A stretch of 64,000 nucleotides of DNA from Astropecten irregularis (lineage: Eukaryota > Echinodermata > Asteroidea > Paxillosida > Astropectinidae): positions 372,001-436,000 of the forward strand of contig OZ020261.1 of NCBI GenBank assembly GCA_963971285.1, given 5' to 3'. Both the position numbers and the translations under genes were made by a program. Positions 766-58,935 of the stretch are shown in pieces (positions within the stretch are counted from its first letter, which is position 1; every line of letters begins with the position of its first letter). The notes beneath the pieces are model-generated. The model saw only the letters and a list, made by a program, of their open reading frames with translations, did not search any database and was not told the origin of the DNA.

Positions 766-1925
766 TTTGTGTGTGATTGATGGTAGCTAAACGTATGAAG
801 CCTGTGGGTGATTGATTGTAGCTATACCTATGAAGCCTGTGTGTGATTGATGGTAGCTATACGTATGAAGCATATGTGTAATTGATGATAGCTATACGTA
901 TGAAGCCTGTGTGTGATTGATGGTAGCTATACGTATGAAGCATGTGTGTGATTGATAGTAGCTATACGTATGAAGTATGTGTGTGATTGATGGTAGCTAT
1001 ACGTATGAAGCATATGTGTGATTGATGATAGCTATACTTATGAAGCATGTGTGTGATTGATTATAGCTATACGTGTGAATCGTGTGTGTGATTGGTGATA
1101 GTTATACGTAAGAAGCCTGTGTATGATTGATGGTAGCTCTACATATGAAGCCTATGTGTGATTGATGAAAGCTATACGCATGAAGCCTAGTGTGATTGAT
1201 GGTAGGTATACGTATGAATCCTGTGTGTGATTGATGGTAAGTATACGTACGAAGCCTGTGTGTGATTGATGATAGCTATACGTATGAAGCCTGTTTGTGA
1301 TTGATGATAGATATACGTATGAAGCCTGTGTGTGATTGATGGTAGCTATACGTATGAATCCGGTGTGTGATTGATAGAAGCTTAGCATAAGAAGCCTGTG
1401 TGTGGTTGATGGTAGCTTAGCATATGAAGCCTGTGTGTGATTGATGGTAGCTATACGTATGAATCCGGTGTGTGATTGATAGAAGCTTAGCATAAGAAGC
1501 CTGTGTGTGGTTGATTGTATCTTAGCATATGAAGCCTGTGTGTGGTTGATGGTAGCTTAGCATATGAAGCCGGTGTGCAATTGATGGTAAATATGAAGCC
1601 TGTGTGTTGTTGATGATAGCTATACGTATGAAGCCTGTAAGTGATTGATGATAGCTATACGTATGAAGCCTGTGTGTGATTGATGATAGCTATACGTATG
1701 AAACATGTGAGTGATTGATGATAGCTATACGTATGAAGCATGTGTATGATTGATGGTAGCTATACGTATGAAGCATGTGTATGATTGATGATAGTAGAGC
1801 CTGTGTGTGATTGATGGTAGGTATACTTATGAAGCCTGTGTGTGGTTGATGGTAGCTTAGCATATGAAGCCTGTGTGCAATTGGTGGTAGATATTAAGCC
1901 TGTGTGTGGTTGATGGTAGCACACA
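766..1925. repeat. 35-bp minisatellite, copy 1
   Basis: About 33 degenerate monomers of a 35-bp motif containing GATTGATGGTAGCTATACGT. The spacing is visible between successive ACGTATGAAG occurrences at 861 and 896. Because 35 is not a multiple of three, the apparent proteins rich in INHTQASY are frame-cycling artefacts. Some monomers carry AGCTTAGCATA in place of AGCTATACGTA, giving two monomer subtypes. Confidence 0.93.
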
Positions 1926-2957
1926 CAGGTTTCATATCCATTGCTACTATCAACCACCCCAAATTAATTTTACAAAAAATCCCAAAGCCGGATTTCCAAA
2001 CCCCAAATTCTAACACCCCCCCCCCCCACATGCTTTATATGTATACCTACCATCAATGACATGTGGCTGAAGCCTGTGTATGGTTGATGGTAGCTATGAA
2101 AATATATATCCATCCCCTCTATGGCAATTTAGAGCTATTTAATTTCACCCGTCCCATTTCCCAAAAGCTAGATGCGCCCGCCCCTGATATCTGCCCACGA
2201 TTATATTATAGCAAGCTCGTACAATCCGGATGATCCATTGTCAAGCCTTGTAAAGGGGGATTAATTCATTGAATGAAAGGAAACTGAAACATCACGAGTA
2301 ACATTGTGCTAGTATTTTAATAATGTGACACCTTGTTTGTAAAGAAATTGGTGATTTATTTTTAAAGAAATCTTTGAATATTTGATTTTAGATTTCAGAT
2401 AAATCAATTATTATTAAATGTTTACCAAATGAAACAGCACAATTTGCTGCCACTAGGTCCGAGTCCCATTGCAAAGCAACAACATAGGGGTTCCAGATCA
2501 TGGATACAGTATGGCTGTATGGAGTACGTTAGTTATATTGATCACCATATCACGGTATTTTGGATATCGCTCGATCGAATCCCGCTCCAATGTTTCTTTG
2601 TTAACTTTTCAATGACTAAAAGTCAGTCAGTTTCCTTTGTGGTTATTTGATGATCTATAATCCAAATTTTCATCTCCACTCGCGGGTACAATATAATAAG
2701 GATCGTTTCCAAACGTGTTTAAATGGCGCATAGGCTGTGATAAGCAAAAGCCATAGCAAAAGCAAACAACCAGCAGCCAAAAATGTAACTCGTGTCTAGT
2801 GGCGGGTCTAGAGGGGTTTTGAGCGTTAAGGATGCAACCCCACTTTAAAGGTTGTATTTACCGTTACTATCAACCACCCTCAGACTTAATAAGTATAGCT
2901 ACCCCAAAGCCCAATCAGGCTTTGTATGGATTATGGCATCTGTATGTACATCTATAG

Positions 2958-4115
2958 TTTGTGTGTGATTGATGGTAGCTAAACGTATGAAGCCTGTGGG
3001 TGATTGATTGTAGCTATACCTATGAAGCCTGTGTGTGATTGATGGTAGCTATACGTATGAAGCATATGTGTGATTGATGATAGCTATACGTATGAAGCCT
3101 GTGTGTGATTGATGGTAGCTATACGTATGAAGCATGTGTGTGATTGATAGTAGCTATACGTATGAAGTATGTGTGTGATTGATGGTAGCTATACGTATGA
3201 AGCATATGTGTGATTGATGATAGCTATACTTATGAAGCATGTGTGTGATTGATTATAGCAATACGTGTGAATCGTGTGTGTGATTGGTGATAGTTATACG
3301 TAAGAAGCCTGTGTATGATTGATGGTAGCTCTACATATGAAGCCTATGTGTGATTGATGAAAGCTATACGCATGAAGCCTAGTGTGATTGATGGTAGGTA
3401 TACGTATGAATCCTGTGTGTGATTGATGGTAAGTATACGTACGAAGCCTGTGTGTGATTGATGATAGCTATACGTATGAAGCCTGTTTGTGATTGATGAT
3501 AGATATACGTATGAAGCCTGTGTGTGATTGATGGTAGCTATACGTATGAATCCGGTGTGTGATTGATAGAAGCTTAGCATAAGAAGCCTGTGTGTGGTTG
3601 ATGGTAGCTTAGCATATGAAGCCTGTGTGTGATTGATGGTAGCTATACGTATGAATCCGGTGTGTGATTGATAGAAGCTTAGCATAAGAAGCCTGTGTGT
3701 GGTTGATTGTATCTTAGCATATGAAGCCTGTGTGTGGTTGATGGTAGCTTAGCATATGAAGCCGGTGTGCAATTGATGGTAAATATGAAGCCTGTGTGTT
3801 GTTGATGATAGCTATACGTATGAAGCCTGTAAGTGATTGATGATAGCTATACGTATGAAGCCTGTGTGTGATTGATGATAGCTATACGTATGAAACATGT
3901 GAGTGATTGATGATAGCTATACGTATGAAGCATGTGTATGATTGATGGTAGCTATACGTATGAAGCATGTGTATGATTGATGATAGTAGAGCCTGTGTGT
4001 GATTGATGGTAGGTATACTTATGAAGCCTGTGTGTGGTTGATGGTAGCTTAGCATATGAAGCCTGTGTGCAATTGGTGGTAGATATTAAGCCTGTGTGTG
4101 GTTGATGGTAGCACA
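2958..4115. repeat. 35-bp minisatellite, copy 2
   Basis: Same array in the second 2.19-kb unit, in the same monomer order as copy 1 and nearly base-identical. Confidence 0.92.
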
Positions 4116-5149
4116 CACAGGTTTCATATCCATTGCTACTATCAACCACCCCAAATTAATTTTACAAAAAATCCCAAAGCCGGATTTCCAAACCCAAATT
4201 CTAACACCCCCCCCCCACATGCTTTATATGTATACCTACCATCAATGACATGTGGCTGAAGCCTGTGTATGGTTGATGGTAGCTATGAAAATATATATCC
4301 ATCCCCTCTATGGCAATTTAGAGCTATTTAATTTCACCCGTCCCATTTCCCAAAAGCTAGATGCGCCCGCCCCTGATATCTGCCCACGATTATATTATAG
4401 CAAGCTCGTACAATCCGGATGATCCATTGTCAAGCCTTGTAAAGGGGGATTAATTCATTGAATGAAAGGAAACTGAAACATCACGAGTAACATTGTGCTA
4501 GTATTTTAATAATGTGACACCTTGTTTGTAAAGAAATTGGTGATTTATTTTTAAAGAAATCTTTGAAAATTTGATTTTAGATTTCAGATAAATCAATTAT
4601 TATTAAATGTTTACCAAATGAAACAGCACAATTTGCTGCCACTAGGTCCGAGTCCCATTGCAAAGCAACAACATAGGGGTTCCAGATCATGGATACAGTA
4701 TGGCTGTATGGAGTACGTTAGTTATATTGATCACCGTATCACGGTATTTTGGATATCGCTCGATCGAATCCCGCTCCAATGTTTCTTTGTTAACTTTTCA
4801 ATGACTAAAAGTCAGTCAGTTTCCTTTGTGGTTATTTGATGATCTATAATCCAAATTTTCATCTCCACTCGCGGGTACAATATAATAAGGATCGTTTCCA
4901 AACGTGTTTAAATGGCGCATAGGCTGTGATAAGCAAAAGCCATAGCAAAAGCAAACAACCAGCAGCCAAAAATGTAACTCGTGTCTAGTGGCGGGTCTAG
5001 AGGGGTTTTGAGCGTTAAGGATGCAACCCCACTTTAAAGGTTGTATTTACCGTTACTATCAACCACCCTCAGACTTAATAAGTATAGCTACCCCAAAGCC
5101 CAATCAGGCTTTGTATGGATTATGGCATCTGTATGTACATGTATAGTTT

Positions 5150-6303
5150 GTGTGTGATTGATGGTAGCTAAATGTATGAAGCCTGTGGGTGATTGATTGT
5201 AGCTATACCTATGAAGCCTGTGTGTGATTGATGGTAGCTATACGTATGAAGCATATGTGTGATTGATGATAGCTATTCGTATGAAGCCTGTGTGTGATTG
5301 ATGGTAGCTATACGTATGAAGCATGTGTGTGATTGATAGTAGCTATACGTATGAACTATGTGTGTGATTGATGGTAGCTATACGTATGAAGCATATGTGT
5401 GATTGATGATAGCTATACTTATGAAGCATGTGTGTGATTGATTATAGCTATACGTGTGAATCGTGTGTGTGATTGGTGATAGTTATACGTAAGAAGCATG
5501 TGCGTGATTGATGATAGCTATACGTATGAAGCATGTGTGTGATCGATGGTAGCTATACGTATGAAGCCTGTGTATGATTGATGGTAGCTCTACGTATGAA
5601 GCCTATGTGTGATTGATGAAAGCTATACGCATGAAGCCTAGTGTGATTGATGGTAGGTATACGTATGAATCCTGTGTGTGATTGATGGTAAGTATACGTA
5701 CGAAGCCTGTGTGTGATTGATGATAGCTATACGTATGAAGCCTGTGTGTGATTGATGATAGATATACGTATGAAGCCTGTGTGTGATTGATGGTAGCTTA
5801 GCATATGAAGCCTGTGTGTGATTGATGGAAGCTATACGTATGAATCCGGTGTGTGATTGATAGAAGCTTAGCATAAGAAGCCTGTGTGTGGTTGATTGTA
5901 TCTTAGCATATGAAGCCTGTGTGTGGTTGATGGTAGCTTAGCATATGAAGCCGGTGTGCAATTGATGGTAAATATGAAGCCTGTGTGTTGTTGATGATAG
6001 CTATACGTATGAAGCCTGTAAGTGATTGATGATAGCTATACGTATGAAGCCTGTGTGTGATTGATGATAGCTATACGTATGAAACATGTGAGTGATTGAT
6101 GATAGCTATACGTATGAAGCATGTGTATGATTGATGGTAGCTATACGTATGAAGCATGTGTATGATTGATGATAGTAGAGCCTGTGTGTGATTGATGGTA
6201 GGTATACTTATGAAGCCTGTGTGTGGTTGATGGTAGCTTAGCATATGAAGCCTGTGTGCAATTGGTGGTAGATATTAAGCCTGTGTGTGGTTGATGGTAG
6301 CAC
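5150..6303. repeat. 35-bp minisatellite, copy 3
   Basis: Same array in the third unit. Around 5495-5570 it has two extra monomers, and it lacks about two monomers further on. This is typical of unequal exchange or slippage inside the array. Confidence 0.92.
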
Positions 6304-29094: not shown

Positions 29095-29375
29095 CATTGA
29101 AAAGTGAACAAGGAAAAATTAACTTGAGCGGGATTCGAACCAGCGAACATCGGAATACCGTACCGTATAGTCAATTATCTTTGTTAGTTGATCAGCTAAT
29201 TGACGATTTAGTATTACAGACACCACCAACATAGGACTGGATAGCTCAGTTGGTAAGAGCGCCGGTATGGTGTTCCGGAGGTCGCTGGTTCGAATCTTTT
29301 TCCAGTCAATTTTTCGCTGTTCACTTTTCAATGACTTAAAATTAACCAGTCAGTTTCCCTAGTTATCTAATGATT
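29095..29375. mobile_element. head-to-head tRNA-like SINE pair
   Basis: The left arm is the reversed tail and T-arm (CATTGAAAAGTGAACAAGG, GCGGGATTCGAACCAGCG). The right arm is a forward tRNA-like head and tail (TTCACTTTTCAATGACTT, CAGTCAGTTTCCCTAG). A linker containing TCAATTATCTTTGTT joins them. The same arrangement with the same linker recurs at 49148 and 56047. Confidence 0.7.
29235..29308 (+). ncRNA. tRNA-like SINE head, not a functional tRNA
   Basis: Acceptor halves GACTGGA and TCCAGTC pair, as do D-stem halves GCTC and GAGC, and a B-box GGTTCGAAT is present. The T-stem is broken (GCTGG against CTTTT) and the anticodon stem has a mismatch. The sequence runs into the SINE tail, so I treat it as a SINE promoter region. 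Confidence 0.6.
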
Positions 29376-37239: not shown

Positions 37240-38200
37240 TATAGGTTTTCCCGCACATTTTATGTTTTTTTCATTCAATTTCCAAAGCGGTTAACTTCAA
37301 TTTGGTCTCGGAGATTCCTAACCTTGCATATCTCAATGTTCAATTTCGTCTTTGGTCCCCCATTTTGACACTTTGATCAACCAATTTTATTTGCCACTCA
37401 TTTTTATCAAAAACAATTCAATTTCGTCATTTTGCAATGAAATTCGTATAAATTTCATCTAAATACGTCACATGATTATATGCCGTCCTTCATTATTTTA
37501 CGTTTCATCGTTTCATGTTCACTTTAAAAGTTTAAACATTACTTTCTAGTGGCGGAGGAATATTTTGTCTGACGAAATGAGAATTTAGCATGTATGATGT
37601 GCTTTTCAAAAATAATGTTAGCCTATATGTGAATACATTCAGATCGGTATTCTTGTTTTGATGTGAAATTACGAATACAAAGTATTTAGCCCTGCTTATT
37701 TCTGGTATGCAAACTAAAAAAAACATCTTTCCTCTGTTTTTCCGGCAAAATAAAAACCGAAAAGCACATCATACATGGTAAATTCGCATTTCGGGTATGT
37801 TTCTGCGTCAGACAAGGTATTCTTCCGACACTAGAAAGTACTATTTAGTGAAAAATGACTGACGATGAAACGTAAAAAAAAAAAAATGAAGAACGACATA
37901 ATTTATAATCATATGACGATAGACCTATTTGACATTTATACGAATTTCAGTGAAAAATGACGAAATTGACAAGTTCGTCTATCATTGATTTCGTTTGGCA
38001 ACTGCGGTGCAATTGAATTTTATTTGATCAAAATTTTATGAAATTGGCAAATATATAAAATTAGTTGTCAGTGTCAAAATGGGGACTAAAGACGAAATTG
38101 AACATGGGATATGCAAGGTAATGAATCTTCGATATAAAATTGAAGTTAACCGCTTTGGAAATTGAATGAAAAATGTTTTAAAATCTTCGGGAAAACTTAT
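37240..38200. mobile_element. foldback element, about 950 bp, in the first intron
   Basis: Arms of several hundred bases. CATTCAATTTCCAAAGCGG and TTAACTTCAATTTGG at the left are inverted at the right as AATTGAAGTTAACCGCTTTG and GGAAATTGAATG. CAATTTCGTCTTTGGTCCCC pairs with GGGGACTAAAGACGAAATTG. CTAGTGGCGGAGGAATATTT and AGGTATTCTTCCGACACTAG flank the middle. No transposase. Confidence 0.8.
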
Positions 38201-38332
38201 AATAGGCCTATAATAATAACGCGACCGTATGTAATATGAACTGTGTACTGTAATATTAATAATTAATGAATAAATAGATATAATTTGTCATTCTCTCTCC
38301 TTTCCAGAAAAAAAGTCATACAGCAGACAACA

Positions 38333-41300
38333 ATGGCACAGGTATTGATTTCTTTTCAAGTTCCATTTTTCTTCTCAATCATTATTTGTTCTTTTTTGAG
38401 GGCATATTGGCATGTGCGATCTGGCCAAACTTTGCTTGTTATGCAGACCATTATTATAATATTATTGTATGCAGCGTTACTTTATTCGTGAAACTGGAAC
38501 TTGTGACTATTTCATCAGACTTTTGTTTTGTTCCAGATTACTATTTCGTTTTACCTCAAAATAAACGGGTTCCCGTTTACCTGTTCATTTACTATAAATG
38601 TATTTTTTGCTCCCTTAAACAGCATCAAACACGAAAGAAATCAAGGAAGCGACCTCAACAGCATACCCTGTTTTCCTATGGGGTACATACTTTATCTGGA
38701 GTCCGTGGCAAACGACCAAGACCATGTTCAGAAGCTGAAGGTGTGTTTTGAAACTGTAATCACTTGGGCAAGTTCAAGGTTACTTCAAGGGTCGGGCGCA
38801 TGGTGAAAGTTGATTTTGGGATTTTAAAAGTTACCTGATTTTGATTAATGTAACTTGTTGAATGTTACAATGTATAAACATTTCCAAAAATAATAATTCC
38901 GTTCTTCTGTGTGGGGCCTAAATACATGTACCACATCCTTTTTACAGATGGACCAATGGCACGTGCTCTACGGGATTCTGCTTTGGAGTCTAGCCGGAAA
39001 AATGCAAGATACCAAACTTACAAAGACCGCTTGCTACAAAACATGGATGCCGTCAGCATGGTACTCAGACAAGATGTGCCGGGTGATGGAAACTGCTTTT
39101 ACTACTGTGTACTGGATCAGATGGAACGACTAAGGATGGGATGTGGGAAAAAGCAAAGAACGGCTTCCAGCCTGAGAACTGACGTTGTTTCCTTCTTAGC
39201 TAATGTGGTTAGTGGGACTGGATATCTTTATATTTGAAAAGCACGAAATGCACAAATCGGGCCGTTTGTTTTCTTTCTGAAAGCTTTTTACCAGGAAAAC
39301 AATATTAAGGTCGCGCAAAACATTTTTAGGGTGATAGGATATTGCAATCTTATTGCCTTATGATAACACGCTTGCATGTTAGATTTCTGAAATTGGCACT
39401 ATATTTAAACCAAAAAAGGAATCCGTGATAGATAATCAAAAGTGTAAAGTTTTAATTTGGAATTTAACAAATACATTCCATACCTGACACTCAGTGCAAA
39501 ATTACGTCGCTCTTTCGTTGTCTGCTGTCAACTATACGCAGTCTGATTGTTCTTTCATCCATTTTATAACAGGATGAAAAGGACCCACTTAAGCCTTTTG
39601 CAACTGAAAGGTTTTTGTCTGAAACGAAGAAGGATGGGATTTGGGCCGACCATGTTATCATCCAGGCAATGGCGAGAATGCTCCATAGAGACATATGGGT
39701 GGTTACCAGTTGCCAGTCCTTGACCGAAAGGGGAAATCTCATCGAGAAGATTCCAAGTGGACATAAAGGAGACCCAATGATTTTGGGTCATCTCGGCCAA
39801 CTTCATTATTGGAGTTTAGGTAAGCGTTTATTATATATAATACGTATAGAATGAACTATAAAACACATTTTTACAAATATGAAGTATTCTATACATATTT
39901 CTTTTCTTAACCAACAGAACCGAAATCAATGTCAATGACTCGAAGTGACTTCCCACCACTATCTCCGTCGACTACGACACCGACACAGCCTCCGCCATCT
40001 CCATGGCCTGAGACCCAAACCCAAGCTCCGTCATCTCCGTGGCCCGAGACCCCACCACAAGCTCCGCCATCTCCGTGGCCTGAGACCCAAACACAGCCTT
40101 CGCCATCTCCGTCACCTGAGGCCCCACCACAAGCTCCGCCATCTCCGTGGCCTGAGACCCAAACACAGCCTCCGACATCTCCTTCGCCCGAGACCCCACC
40201 ACAAGCTCCGCCATCTCCGTGGCCTGAGACCCAAACACAGCCTCCGCCATCTCCGTCACCTGAGGCCCCACCACAAGCTCCGCCATCTCCGCGGCCTGAA
40301 ACCCAAACACAGCCTCCGCCATCTCCTTCGCCCGAGACCCCACCACAAGCTCCGCCATCTCCGTGGCCTGAGACCCAAACACAGCCTCCGCCATCTCCGT
40401 CGCCCGAGACCCCACCACAAGCTCCGCCATCTCCGTGGCCTGAGACCCCACCACAAGCTCCGCCATCTCCGTGGCCTGAGACCCAAACACAGCCTCCGCC
40501 ATCTCCGTCACCTGAGGCCCCACCACAAGCTCCGCCATCTCCGTGGCCTGAGATCACACCACAAGCTCCGCCATCTCCGTCGCCTGAGACCCAAACACAG
40601 CCTCCGCCATCTCCGTCGCCTGAGACCCCACCACAAGCTCCGCCATCTCCGTGGCCTGAGACCACACCACAAGCTCCGCCATCTCCGTCGCCTGAGACCC
40701 CACCACAAGCTTCGCCATCTTCATCGCCTGTTTTGCCAACGTCTCATCATCAGTTTGAAAGTCCACCAAATGACCTTGGTTTATTCATCGGTGAAAAAAG
40801 GGTAAGTTTCATCAAAAACACTGCAAAAAACAATGACAAAAAACTATTGTTAATGTGCATTGAAAAACCTCAAAATCACTCCTTAATGTCCTTTATAAAA
40901 TATGACCATCGATTGCGCCACTACCTAACTTTGTTTTTAGGTATCGCGAAACCTAATAATAAAATTGATAATGAAAAAATAATAATAATGATCGAGTGAA
41001 CAATGACCCTTTGAGTAGCTTAATCAGTTGCAGCATATTTCCTGCTGCTACATATAGGGATCTTTCTACATCTTACTTACAATGATTTTTTATTTCTTAC
41101 AATTACCTTTTCTTTCCAGCAGCTTGATAATGCTACTCGAGTTCGACTCCTCCGTCATACTTGGGTGCCCGAAAAAGATTATCATTTTCCAGTGGACGGC
41201 AAGCGAAACCTGAAATTTCAACATCGGTGGCTTCAGCGTTGGCCGTGGCTTGTTTACAGCTCGTCAAAACATGGTGCGTTTTGCAAACAATGTGTCTTGT

Positions 41301-43982
41301 TTGCGCCAGCCAATGTCGGAGGTCAACGACTCCGAAAGTTAGTGGCGGAGCCCTACACCAATTGGGGCAAGGCTATTGAGAATTTCACAGCACATGAAAA
41401 ACTGGAGTACCATAAGGCATGTATGGCAAGTGCTATTCGATTTCTGAGCATAGCCGAACAGAAGGAGACATCAATACGATATCAAGTGGACAGAGCGGCC
41501 AGAAAACAAGTGGAAGAGAATCGGAGACGAGTTCGCCCCATCATAGACACGATAGTCTTATGTGGAAGACAGGGGCTAGCACTCAGAGGACACCGAGATT
41601 CTGGCATGCTGAACTCTGACAAAGAACCGTTGGCGAATGAGGGGAATTTTAGAGCTCTCCTCCGTTATCGTTTACAGGCTGGTGACCAGGTTTTAAAGAC
41701 TCACTTAGAAAACTGCAATCGGAATTCTTCGTACCTGAGTCCCAGGATCCAAAACGACATAGTCAACTGTTGTAACATGGAAATTCGAGACAAAATTGTA
41801 AAACGGATAAATGCTGCCAAATGCTTCTCTGTGTTGGCCGACGAAACCACCGATGTGTCAAATGTGGAACAGTTTTCCCTGTGTGCGAGATACGTCGACG
41901 AACAGATGTGCCTGCGTGAAGACTTTATGCAATTCGTACCTATATACGACATGACTGGTAAAAATCTTGCCAAAGTATTGATGGAGAGTCTGAAGGGGTA
42001 TGGGGTCGACCTCCAGTACCTTCGTGGTCAGGGTTACGACGGGGCGGCCGCAATGAGCGGTCGATTTAAAGGTGTACAGACTCACATTTCACAAGAGTAC
42101 CCAAATGCCCCTTATGTGCACTGCGCGGCGCACAGTCTTAACCTGGCGGTGTCTGGGTCATGTGATGAGCGTCCAATAAAAGCCTGTCTGGGAACAATAA
42201 CAAGTGTTTACAACTTCTTTAACACTGCCAAGCGTCAAGCTGTACTTCAGCAGAAGGTAGAGAACGTGAGAGCACCCAATCAACGTGTGCAGAAACTTAA
42301 GCAAATGTGCCCAACAAGATGGATAGCCAGACATGATTCGGTATTGACATTTTTGGAATTGCTTCTTCCAGTAGTAGACTCACTGGAATCTATTTCAGAG
42401 TGGCAAGACAGAGTCTCATCTGCGAATGCTTCCCAGCTCCTCTGCGCTATTAGGCATACAGAATTCATAGTTTCTCTCCATGTACTCGCAAAGGTGTTTT
42501 CGAAGAGCCTGCCACTATGTAGAGACTTACAGAAAGAAGCGACTGATCTTGTTGCCGCAATGGCATCTGCAAAAATACTCGAAGAAGCCCTGTTAGAGAT
42601 GAGATGCAAAGCAGACGTAGACTTTAACGACATATTTCTCCAGGCTACCAAGACATGTGATGCAGTTGGGGTGACTGTAACTCGTCCAAGACTTGCAGGA
42701 AGGCAAACACAACGAAACAATGTGCAAACAAGCTCATCGGAAGAGTATTTCAGAATTGCTGTCTTTCTGCCATTTGTGGATCATTTCTTAAGCGAACTGA
42801 ATATCAGATTCTTAAGTCATGAGACCCTCCTTACAAGCTTCATGTGCTTGTTGCCATCTGAACAATCCCTGAAGGATTCTATGAGGCCATCACGCGAACA
42901 ATTGAAACAGCTACAGTCGCTTGTAGAAAAGTATACAGCTGACCTCGGTGGCAACCATCTTGCGGCTGAAGGCGAACTAGAAATCTGGTACCGCCTCGTC
43001 TCAAAATTAGACAACAAGCCCAAAAATGCACTGGAAGCGCTTTTGGCTTGCGACAAGATCAATCTCCCCTCTGTGCATATCCTGCTCAAAATACTTGCAA
43101 CTCTTCCAGTGTCGACAAGCTCCACTGAAAGGTATGATTTTGATTTTTAATTGTACAGTGCACTTTACAAAAGTCTATTGGATTACCCCGGTATGCAACG
43201 TGTTATTTTAAAAGGGACACAGTGCAAGCGCAATGATTTTTCCTAGAGGATCCCTTCAGGGATTGACGTAAATTCATAAATTTTGGTCATTCGACAGTGC
43301 TTAAAACAAGTGCGTGTAAATAGCTCGAGCACTGATCAAAACGAAAACTTCACACAATGAAAGAAATGCTAATCACACAAGGGACTTTTTAAATAAAAAC
43401 AGAGTCGAAAATTCGCAATTTAGATCATTTAAAACGATTATCAGAAGACTTAAACATAGTATAAATTCACTGCAAAGACACAAAAAACAAGGTTCATGTA
43501 ATATTTCTTTACAATAATACTTGAACCTCGCAATATTTGGGGGGGGGGGGAGGGGGGAATGATAATACACGCCACCCCCTCCCCCCACCTCAAATATTGG
43601 GGGGACATAATTATCTCCCCATCCCCCGGGATCGACACCCATGGACTGGTATTTTTATGATATGATGTAATTGATAAGGCACGTCAATAAAAGTAATACT
43701 CTCTAGTTGGAGTGTTCCTAAAAAAGTGATGAAAAAAGTGCAGTGAAAATGGGCGAATCTTAAAAACTAATCCGTAGATTTTGGTTCCTTTATTTCTTCT
43801 TCTGAAGGTCTTTTTCAACACTAAAACGGCTGAAAACGTACTTGAGAAACACCATGGGACAGGATCGCCTGAACGGCTTGGCAATGCTGAACATTCACCG
43901 GGAAACAGACATAAATGCAGAAGAAATCATCAACCGCCTTGCAGCAGATGCACCCAGAAGACTAAATTTCCGCCTCACATGA
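38333..43982 (+). CDS. OTU protease - proline-rich linker - hAT transposase fusion, 7 coding exons
   Basis: Predicted 1234-aa protein. Coding exons: 38333-38341, 38623-38740, 38948-39207, 39573-39819, 39918-40801, 41120-43131, 43808-43982. All introns are GT..AG and every junction keeps phase (3705 nt in total). Residues 7-13 (RKKSRKR) look like a nuclear localisation signal. Residues about 75-211 form an OTU cysteine-protease domain with DGNC at 89-92 (nucleophile C92) and candidate catalytic H207 in QLHYWSL. Residues about 225-490 are the repetitive Pro-rich linker. From about 530 a TTF-type zinc finger follows (C561-x2-C564, later HEKLEYH). Then comes the RNase-H-like hAT core: LADETTD with D747, GYDGAAAMSGRFKGVQ with D813, VHCAAHSLNLAVS and CPTRWIARHDS. 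The C-terminal dimerisation motif PVSTSSTER-SFSTLKRLK spans the last intron. The start has context ACAACAATGG. A host gene derived from a transposase is the main alternative, but the flanking inverted ends argue for a transposon gene. Confidence 0.85.
39990..40735 (+). repeat. in-frame 36-bp coding minisatellite
   Basis: About 20 copies of a 36-bp unit, alternating between types encoding APPSPWPETQTQ and PPPSPSPETPPQ. Because the unit is a multiple of three, the array keeps the transposase frame open and only changes linker length. The other five frames are also largely open, giving spurious ORFs on both strands. Confidence 0.93.
43132..43807 (+). other. last intron of the transposase gene, with a G/C-tract foldback
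   Basis: Donor AAAG|GTATGA and acceptor TTCTGAAG|G splice codon AG-G (Arg1177) inside the conserved STER-SFSTLKRLK motif, confirming the intron. At about 43530-43650 the intron carries a small palindrome: CAATATTTGGGGGG against CCCCCACCTCAAATATTGGG. Confidence 0.75.
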
Positions 43983-45239
43983 ATGAAAACGATTGAGCAA
44001 ACCTACCATGATTCGCATTTGAGTTGTCCAAATTCTTCCTCAACATTTCCCTTGCTATAGACCTTTTTCACGGTGCATCCATCCCCATTCAAAGCAGTGT
44101 AATCAAACCGAGGCTTGGATTCGAAATAGTCTGGTACCCGTTTTCTTTTGGGGAATTTGTGTTATCTTTTTCAACGGGTATACAAGGAAGGCGACAAACA
44201 TGGATGCGCCGTGAAAAAGGCGTTATACGCATTGCTGCATGACAACAAATCTGTAGTTAAGTTTGGCCAAAAATCCTTGAGTTCGTTCGTGTACTTTTGC
44301 ACACAACCACCAACGCAAACGTGATGCCCCGATTTACGTCAAACCACTCGCAAAGATTTATGCTAATTAGGCCCCTACTCGGGAAAATTCCACATAACAA
44401 GTCGTAGACACTCGTGCTTTGTCCGTCAACGCCGCAAAAAAAAGTATGACGGTACAATTCCGCCATCGCCGTTCATGCAACGTTCATAGCGCGGCATTTA
44501 TCCATATTATTATAACAGTCGTTTATGTGTATCTCTCCACGAAGTTCGTCGCGGTCCACGACTTGACAGTCACGTCCAACTACCAATATTCATACATACA
44601 ATGCTATATTATAATTATGTACATGTATAACGTTGTCATAGGGAGGGCCAATTTTATTGAGAATCATCCATTACAAGTATCGGCCTAGTGGTGTCTTTCT
44701 GCCGCTTTGTTTAATTTGACATATCGGGTCACCGGGTGTGAATATTGTCAAGTTTCGCGGTTGCGTAAAAATATTTCTTTGTTACGGGGCGTGAATGTTT
44801 TTTTTTGTAAGGGCTGCCAGGTAACCGGTAAAAAAAGTCATACCCCATGTCAAACATATAATATTCACCTGACAATAAACGAGCATTGACACTAGACAAA
44901 ATTGGCCATGTTTCTTCAAATTCATTTCATTCATTAATTTTCTTCAAAGAAATTTTATGGCGGAATGATTATTTCCGTTTGATCCTGCGTCTAAATTTTG
45001 CCATCCCAAAAAATAAGATCCAGTTAATTGGTCGAATGTGTGTAAAATCTGAAATTAAAAATGCAAAGAAAAAAATCCCATTCTATTTCCATGACAAAAA
45101 GCTATCAAAAAAAGGGCCATGAAATGCTCTAAAATGCATCACAGAGCATCTAATACCCAATTTTTTTCGGGGCCCTTAAGCGGGCCCCGAACCCCACGCC
45201 TTGGCTTCGCATTTTTTTTAACACCCCCCTTAACAAAAT
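43983..45239 (+). other. 3' part of the transposon, no further gene
   Basis: Downstream of the TGA at 43980 only short frames are seen. The last 80 bp hold GGGGCCCTTAAGCGGGCCCC, a palindrome near the right end that may belong to the subterminal region. Confidence 0.5.
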
Positions 45240-58718: not shown

Positions 58719-58935
58719 ACTGGAGCAAATTGACTGGAGCAGGATTTGAACCAGCGACCTCCGAAATACTGTACTAGCGCTCTTACCAACTGAGCTATCC
58801 AGCCCTATGTTGCCGGTCTCCCTATTAGCCAATTATCTTTGTTCATTTGTCAGTCAGAAGCCATGAAACAACTCGCATACCACTATATCCCAAGGATCAT
58901 TGAAGATACGCGCAGCATTAGGAATGCTGCAACCT
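58719..58935 (-). mobile_element. tRNA-like SINE, single copy
   Basis: On the minus strand: ATTGGCTAATAGGGAGACC, then a tRNA-like head GGGCTGGATAGCTCAGTTGG, TAAGAGCGCTAG, GGAGGTCGCTGGTTCAAATC, CTGCTCCAGTC. The acceptor and D stems can pair. The sequence 5' of the head (GCTTCTGACTGACAAATGAA) matches the linker of the head-to-head pairs. Confidence 0.65.

Follow-up and report, generated by a model that had tools for sequence, protein, structure and literature searches.

A predicted gene of Astropecten irregularis that joins an OTU deubiquitinase-like domain to a hAT transposase

OTU-like domains encoded by transposons are already known, as the first-pass annotation of the locus described here had stated. 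In Ginger1 elements, the transposase resembles a Gypsy integrase and bears an OTU or Ulp1 domain at its C-terminus, and the authors suggest, in the accessible part of PMC2836005, that ubiquitin pathways participate in transposition. Helitrons and Helentrons encode OTU and VTD domains, and deubiquitinase activity has been shown for the VTDs, according to the accessible part of PMC9741609. As to why eukaryotic transposons carry deubiquitinase-type domains, these same portions of PMC9741609 and PMC2836005 offer proposals only. Fungal DNA transposons, including hAT7, encode TET/JBP; OTU is not mentioned in the available portion of PMC12730594. The present locus is a predicted gene at positions 38333-43982 (forward strand) of a 64,000-nucleotide stretch of DNA (hereafter the window) from Astropecten irregularis (contig OZ020261.1, positions 372,001 to 436,000). 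Its predicted product is an animal-type hAT transposase with an N-terminal OTU deubiquitinase-like domain.

The window protein resembles Ginger1, as portrayed in those excerpts, in that a cut-and-paste transposase and an OTU cysteine protease domain are united in one protein. It differs in having a transposase of the hAT type and in the position of the OTU, which is at the N-terminus, interrupted by an intron and placed ahead of a repeat linker. Helitrons and Helentrons likewise are transposons that encode deubiquitinase-type domains, but they are rolling-circle rather than DDE elements, and of the three domains in the Helentron giant open reading frame (ORF), Herpes_teg_N, OTU and DUF6570, Pfam finds the OTU alone in the window protein. 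In the fungal case, hAT and other lineages carry an enzyme that possibly acts on host silencing marks, but this enzyme is a dioxygenase encoded by a separate gene upstream of the transposase (PMC12730594, accessible part). The core domains of the window protein are those of the DUF4371 animal hATs, annotated as zinc finger MYM-type protein 1-like (e.g. P0121 of Apostichopus japonicus). No report of an OTU-hAT fusion was found in the open-access literature; Repbase, preprints and subscription papers lay beyond reach, and an unindexed description may exist. In the available portions of PMC12062965 and PMC9017028, OTU is either unmentioned or stands for sequence clusters. Judged from sequence, the window protein adds to the transposon-borne OTUs one that is paired with hAT and has an unusual active site.

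The gene model was rebuilt from the sequence and comprises seven exons, whose 1234 codons run uninterrupted to a stop codon, and six introns of 98 to 676 bp that all have GT/AG borders. It reproduces the phase-consistent joining of seven exons into 1234 aa that had been proposed, and agrees with the junctions 39207/39573, 39819/39918 and 40801/41120. The exons are as follows.

38333..38341, forward strand: exon 1, putative first coding exon (MAQ), ATG context ACAACAATGG, donor GT
38623..38740, forward strand: exon 2, basic N-terminal segment with TLFSYG
38948..39207, forward strand: exon 3, first OTU half with Asp89 and Cys92; enters in phase 1, leaves in phase 0
39573..39819, forward strand: exon 4, second OTU half with His207 and HYWSL; enters in phase 0, leaves in phase 1
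39918..40801, forward strand: exon 5, Pro/Ser-rich linker, closing with the hAT-family motif PNDLGLFIGE
41120..43131, forward strand: exon 6, hAT with zinc-finger ligands, DUF4371, D747 and D813; ends just past E1176
43808..43982, forward strand: exon 7, remainder of the hAT dimerisation domain and the stop codon

Exon 1 (9 nt) lies outside all homology found, the homology to a decayed copy on contig C1 beginning at 38521, and the start is therefore the least certain part of the model. The TLFSYG of exon 2 resembles the K/R-rich TLxxYF motif at the N-terminus of related hAT proteins, with a score equalled by 130 of 20000 shuffles and ranking eighth among 48853 segments scored; this is suggestive only of exon 2 being a displaced hAT N-terminus. 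Exons 3 and 4 form a symmetric phase 1-1 OTU module, from which the reading phase continues into exon 5. Here, a 36-bp (12-aa, Pro-rich) in-frame tandem array with 20.3 copies and a 72-bp higher-order unit occupies positions 39961-40720. The PNDLGLFIGE that ends this exon is the top-scoring segment of the whole protein, equalled by none of 20000 shuffles, and motifs of this type directly precede the zinc finger in hAT relatives. A D[ILV][GASC] pattern falls within the last 25 aa before the core in 70 of 77 relatives (5.6% of shuffles), the 77 being those with at least 40 aa upstream of the core among 120 listed.

Pfam recognises three domains in the predicted protein: OTU (PF02338) at residues 87-183 (E 1.9e-9, 38.6 bits, cut-off 23.3), DUF4371 at 624-824 (E 8.2e-27) and hAT dimerisation (PF05699) at 1151-1208 (E 3.7e-10), the last two also above their curated cut-offs. 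The N-terminal OTU with a DGNC..H signature is thereby borne out; Asp89-Gly-Asn-Cys92 and His207 are in frame, the Pfam match stopping before the histidine. Asp747, Asp813 and Glu1176 of the hAT part are in frame as well. We take these three residues to be the hAT catalytic triad, and the former set to be the OTU catalytic residues. The transposase had been called complete, which holds for DUF4371 and the dimerisation domain; a TTF finger is not named by Pfam in the window protein, and the ligands expected of one, C-x2-C and H-x5-H, are invariant in a 10-row alignment of relatives. When an AlphaFold2 model of exon 6 with a predicted local distance difference test score (pLDDT) of 74.5 was compared with the PDB, a single structure matched at E<=0.001, that of the Hermes hAT transposase (8sjd, E 8.1e-06, template modelling scores 0.35/0.46). 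With the OTU region as query, a protein search gave 213 candidates (proteins 0.55-1.75 times the query length), none of them at E<=0.001, and no hAT relatives were found in viral contigs.

A genome scan for OTU sequence revealed a second OTU-hAT gene (gene 2) that ends ~263 kb before the start of the window gene; the lead was a weak OTU match, at C25:141847, with a hAT ORF downstream of it at C25:145626. Its exons and the element that holds it are listed below.

C25:140179-140251, 140860-141041, 141829-142072: gene 2 exons, AG/GT borders
C25:142908-142970, 143558-143624, 144962-147671: gene 2 exons, continued, AG/GT borders, the last reaching the stop codon
C25:138361-148451: gene 2 element, 10,091 bp, with the 14-bp terminal inverted repeat (TIR) CATGGGCGTCAATC and its inverse, and a perfect 8-bp target-site duplication (TSD) CTTGGATC

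Gene 2 shows the same order of OTU, repeat and hAT as the window gene, and its first four intron phases, counted from the missing start, are 0, 1, 0 and 1, as in the window. Its OTU is split at the corresponding position, and the HYxSL-Glu-Pro stretch crosses the same phase 1 border. The repeats form an in-frame 30-bp array, within which codon 339 is an in-frame stop, and no start exon was located. The counterpart of the exon 2 motif, RRQETLHSFF, sits after the OTU and not before it as in the window model. The two hAT parts are 29% identical, and the nearest named relative of the gene 2 hAT among the matches listed is from Apostichopus japonicus (60%). In a comparison of 32 OTU sequences of this genome, those of the window and gene 2 each have the other as best hit, with 63.9 bits and 26.6% identity over 143 aa; the highest score among the 30 other loci is 48.5 bits.

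Since the C25 element is bounded by TIRs and a TSD and encloses gene 2, the OTU exons are internal to a hAT element, the left end of which is ~2.5 to 3.7 kb away from them. Fragments of the hAT2 type with 90-100% identity occur at six other places, on C28, C1, C9 and C29, of which three were read. Both ends are present in L053 and L054/L059, two relatives with internal deletions, the same TIRs, and the TSDs CTCATATG (L053) and ATGATGAT (L054/L059). L055 is also internally deleted and retains an inner left part and the right end, its left end not being identified in the fetched DNA. The 8-bp TSDs are perfect in all three gene 2-type copies for which both ends are in hand. At least one bona fide hAT element carries an OTU as one of its own parts.

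Further relatives were sought among 240 database proteins (120 of 736 and 120 of 135 found). P0124, a protein of 962 aa, carries OTU, DUF4371 and hAT dimerisation domains in a single reading frame and is 44% identical to gene 2, with 95% query coverage in the search listing; it probably comes from another species, because this genome shows no full-length match of that kind. Its OTU scores slightly below the Pfam cut-off of 23.3 (22.5 bits, 1.7e-4), and 10-residue mean pLDDT values across this OTU in an AlphaFold2 model range from 22 to 66 (20 rows). P0207 (851 aa) begins with sequence like the second OTU half, followed by hAT; the match, made with a three-sequence profile, is weak (11.2 bits, E 0.0043 among the 240), and Pfam finds no OTU. 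P0001 is 69% identical to the window hAT, the closest among the matches listed. Its homology starts and ends at the borders of exon 6 and is flanked by intron-like residues, which suggests that its gene shares introns at these points. The precomputed Pfam annotation assigns an OTU to none of the 240 listed relatives and misses the OTU sequence in P0124 and, more weakly, in P0207. In BLASTP at 1e-3, the OTU regions of the window and gene 2 matched none of the 240. Upstream of the core, 89 of these proteins extend less than 40 aa and eight extend at least 150 aa, two of the eight having OTU-like sequence. Most of these database proteins are single ORFs, and an apparent lack of the OTU in the others therefore says little.

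A decayed second copy of the window locus is found on C1.

Window 38521..44784, forward strand: homology to the decayed copy at C1:11544-11570 kb, minus strand

The C1 copy matches window 38521-41742 and 42872-44784, the two parts being separated by ~23 kb of other DNA, and window 41743-42871 was not found in it. Its order is both OTU exons, the repeat exon, parts of exon 6 and exon 7, with stops and frameshifts, and 195 aligned bases of the exon 5 array are missing. It is the only other copy found that extends into the OTU region; a genome-wide search with the window OTU gave four matches, two of them to its own exons and two to those of the C1 copy, and was too insensitive for the gene 2 OTU. 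Introns diverge by 4.2-5.1% in five of six cases, the sixth, with an insertion, by 13.3% over 211 aligned bases. Divergence is 5.5% in exon 2, 5.8 and 8.2% in the OTU exons, 10.0% in the repeat exon and 4.5 and 4.6% in the hAT exons. The aligned OTU codons hold 16 synonymous and 19 non-synonymous changes (synonymous divergence, dS, 0.169; non-synonymous divergence, dN, 0.050; Fisher p 0.0008), the hAT codons 18 and 29 (dS 0.078, dN 0.037, p 0.02) and the repeat codons 20 and 43 (p 0.46). Seven stops fall in the aligned codons of the C1 copy (four OTU, two hAT, one N-terminal) versus none in the window. This intact frame is the better sign that the window copy was kept, or was active, for longer.

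The OTU exons are thus not confined to the window, being present in the C1 copy and in the TIR- and TSD-bounded C25 element. Taken at the level of sequence, the fusion appears real as a gene structure, and the single fused OTU-hAT gene put forward at first is strongly supported by exon 5, with its continuous phase and closing hAT motif, and by the C1 copy, gene 2 and P0124. The last three also show that the pairing of OTU with hAT is not a chance neighbourhood.

A profile built from three OTUs, those of the window, gene 2 and P0124, matched OTUD1 (2.5e-12), OTUD3 (6.7e-9), OTUD5 (8.3e-9) and viral OTUs in the PDB. Aligned identity among the three is 24-26%, and Asp-Gly-Asn-Cys, Leu-Arg, Gly-His and His-Tyr-x-Ser-Leu are invariant. 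Cys92 and His207 align with the two other OTU-hAT proteins and with other OTU loci. The position two residues after the catalytic histidine (His+2) usually holds the third residue of the OTU triad, Asp or Asn. In 30 other OTU loci of this genome it is Asp in 27 and Asn in two, with no match in one.

The reading preferred here, to which we assign a probability of roughly 0.57, is that the locus is the gene of an OTU-bearing hAT transposon whose OTU acts on ubiquitin at the transposon ends and thereby aids the element. The product would consist of the N-terminal OTU, a long flexible Pro/Ser linker, a zinc finger, an RNase H-like DDE core and a dimerisation domain. The OTU would most likely be carried with the transposase dimer to the transposon ends, where it could remove or bind ubiquitin, or a tag resembling it, attached either to the transposase or to host proteins present where the element is excised or inserted. 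The result might be a longer-lived complex, or repair and silencing steered to the advantage of the element; self-stabilisation and counter-silencing, both suggested by the first-pass annotation, are plausible. We infer that the window copy is or has been such an element, and presume a deubiquitinase activity, its substrate and a benefit to transposition. We favour an OTU that either cleaves or binds ubiquitin and does so in cis, on the transposition complex, with about even odds for catalysis. The fusion of an OTU to a cut-and-paste hAT makes the purpose of such domains testable in cis, by comparing the transposase with and without its OTU.

Several results weigh against this reading. Two scans around the window copy revealed no convincing TIR and TSD. 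The only candidate, at 38460-44606 with TSD TATTATAA and an 11/14 TIR, was rejected since the C1 homology passes its right end to reach 44784 and exon 1 falls outside; shuffled controls gave four hits in 10 for the first scan and none in three for the second. Purifying selection on the OTU, considered from the comparison with C1, was also rejected, as the OTU exons have diverged at least as much as the introns. The synonymous excess in the OTU reflects a high dS rather than a low dN, and constraint is not proven, given that one of the two copies is decayed and that the introns have diverged no more than the OTU has in dN. The P0124 OTU matches that of gene 2 weakly (22%, 33 bits) and has no BLASTP match to the window OTU at E<=10. 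Among those hAT matches of this genome that were read, no OTU was found upstream of any of four other loci (~5 to 8 kb) or in the DNA fetched around any of five fragments on C11. A hAT that is 40% identical lacks an OTU, and one that is 29% identical has it. In a 37-row tree the OTU label is not clustered, 500 of 500 shuffles being as low. Finally, His+2 is Trp in the window, Ile in gene 2 and Val in both P0124 and P0207; as none of the four OTU-hAT proteins has the acid at this position, their catalytic activity may be changed or absent. The catalytic residues had been read as a sign of recent function, which stands for the complete hAT triad and for the retained Cys and His of the OTU, and falls short at the missing Asp or Asn.

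The origin of the pairing may lie in at least two independent captures of the OTU exon module by different hAT lineages through exon shuffling, rather than in one old fusion, a serious possibility that we put slightly short of an even bet. In the tree the four OTU-bearing hATs fall into two deep clades (100/100 each) and require at least four label changes, the module is phase 1-1 in both loci, and the N-terminal motif precedes the OTU in the window model and follows it in gene 2. Against repeated capture stand the order of parts and the in-frame repeat linker, alike in both loci, and the short upstream reach of most listed proteins, by which absence elsewhere may often be only apparent. A broader conjecture, tentative and held with a little under half confidence, is that many animal ZMYM1-like hATs hide an OTU in small upstream exons, that the phase 1-1 module has passed between lineages and that its active site has been rewired. 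ORF-based annotation can overlook accessory domains in such short upstream exons. If hidden OTUs are indeed common, hATs would be a further type of transposon, after Helentrons and Ginger1, to have repeatedly recruited deubiquitinases, and animal DNA transposons would generally need to shield their transposase or transposition complex from ubiquitin.

That the OTU has little or no catalytic activity and serves to bind ubiquitin, so as to recruit or shelter ubiquitinated partners, is possible and somewhat on the improbable side. Such a role would fit the Trp, Ile, Val and Val at a position that is acidic or Asn in 29 of the 30 other loci, and the amino-acid changes between window and C1, which are not depleted relative to the introns. 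It fits less well with DGNC and HYxSL, which are kept in the three complete OTUs despite their 24-26% identity. Moreover, some OTUs, of which A20 is an example, are thought to take their acid from elsewhere. The OTU of the window protein may accordingly have its acid supplied from elsewhere, be weakly active, or only bind.

It is unlikely, in our estimate, that the window copy has been domesticated into a host gene, its OTU-hAT fusion serving a host role and the C25 sister representing the mobile kind. A single intact copy was found, the scans gave no convincing ends, and the C1 copy has no recognisable element end in common with the window. The 1234-codon frame is intact against the seven stops in C1, and P0001, at 69% identity, keeps the borders of exon 6. 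Domestication is opposed by the decayed C1 copy and the scattered C11 fragments, which resemble transposon remains, and by the full DDE triad of the window copy, as domesticated hATs often lose this triad. If it is not a domesticated gene, the window copy may be an old transposon whose ends have eroded or lie at a distance.

That the OTU and hAT exons belong to two adjacent genes or separate mRNAs, fused only on paper, is very improbable: introns of 98 to 676 bp would permit other splicing, exon 1 is unsupported and the gene 2 start exon was not located, but both domains share one ORF in P0124 (and, with the weak 11.2-bit match, in P0207), the exon after the OTU opens with Glu-Pro in the same phase at two loci, and the repeat exon closes with a hAT motif.

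OTU sequences are abundant in this genome, with at least 141 matches (150 of 162 candidates scored). Of 30 loci fetched (L017-L046), 25 lie in open frames of 2864-3402 aa, and their OTUs are 21-30% identical to that of the window. All three giant ORFs tested match Herpes_teg_N, OTU and DUF6570 (DUF6570 below its cut-off in two), and by these domains they would be Helentron-type transposons with two deubiquitinase-type domains. A loan of the OTU from these elements was considered and rejected, as the window and gene 2 OTUs are mutually nearest against the 30 loci and share intron positions; Helentron-type elements may still be a remote source.

Other hAT loci were also noted. Two copies of another hAT family (C16:10411061-10413043 and C1:11291613-11293595) have an uninterrupted 810-aa frame, and no OTU was found in the 5 kb upstream of the C16 copy. 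At C11:19.2-21.9 Mb there is a cluster of short hAT fragments; the five that were read span approximately window 41407-41748 or part of it, share stop codons and were apparently amplified within something else.

Intron 6 of the window gene contains a further feature.

43374..43643, forward strand: high-copy repeat inserted within intron 6; the C1 copy lacks most of it

It recurs in at least 33 other places at 71-83% identity. Its right end, GATCGACACCCATG, at 43630, differs by two mismatches from the C25 TIR and is the best match to it in the window; the TIR of the sister element has three matches there (at most three mismatches) versus 4.05 expected, which is not above chance. Window 44060-44223 is an insertion of ~164 bp with 21-nt inverted repeats, absent from C1, and appears to be a small element resembling a miniature inverted-repeat transposable element (MITE). 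Directly upstream of exon 1, nested imperfect inverted repeats at 37240-38201, the longest arms of which measure 69, 42, 40 and 35 nt and are 86-94% complementary, constitute a long fold-back element. Elsewhere in the window, two tRNA-family matches (29235-29308 and 58731-58804) exceed the Rfam gathering score, and positions 768-6301 hold three near-identical units ~2.19 kb apart, each with 33.6 copies of a 35-bp repeat.

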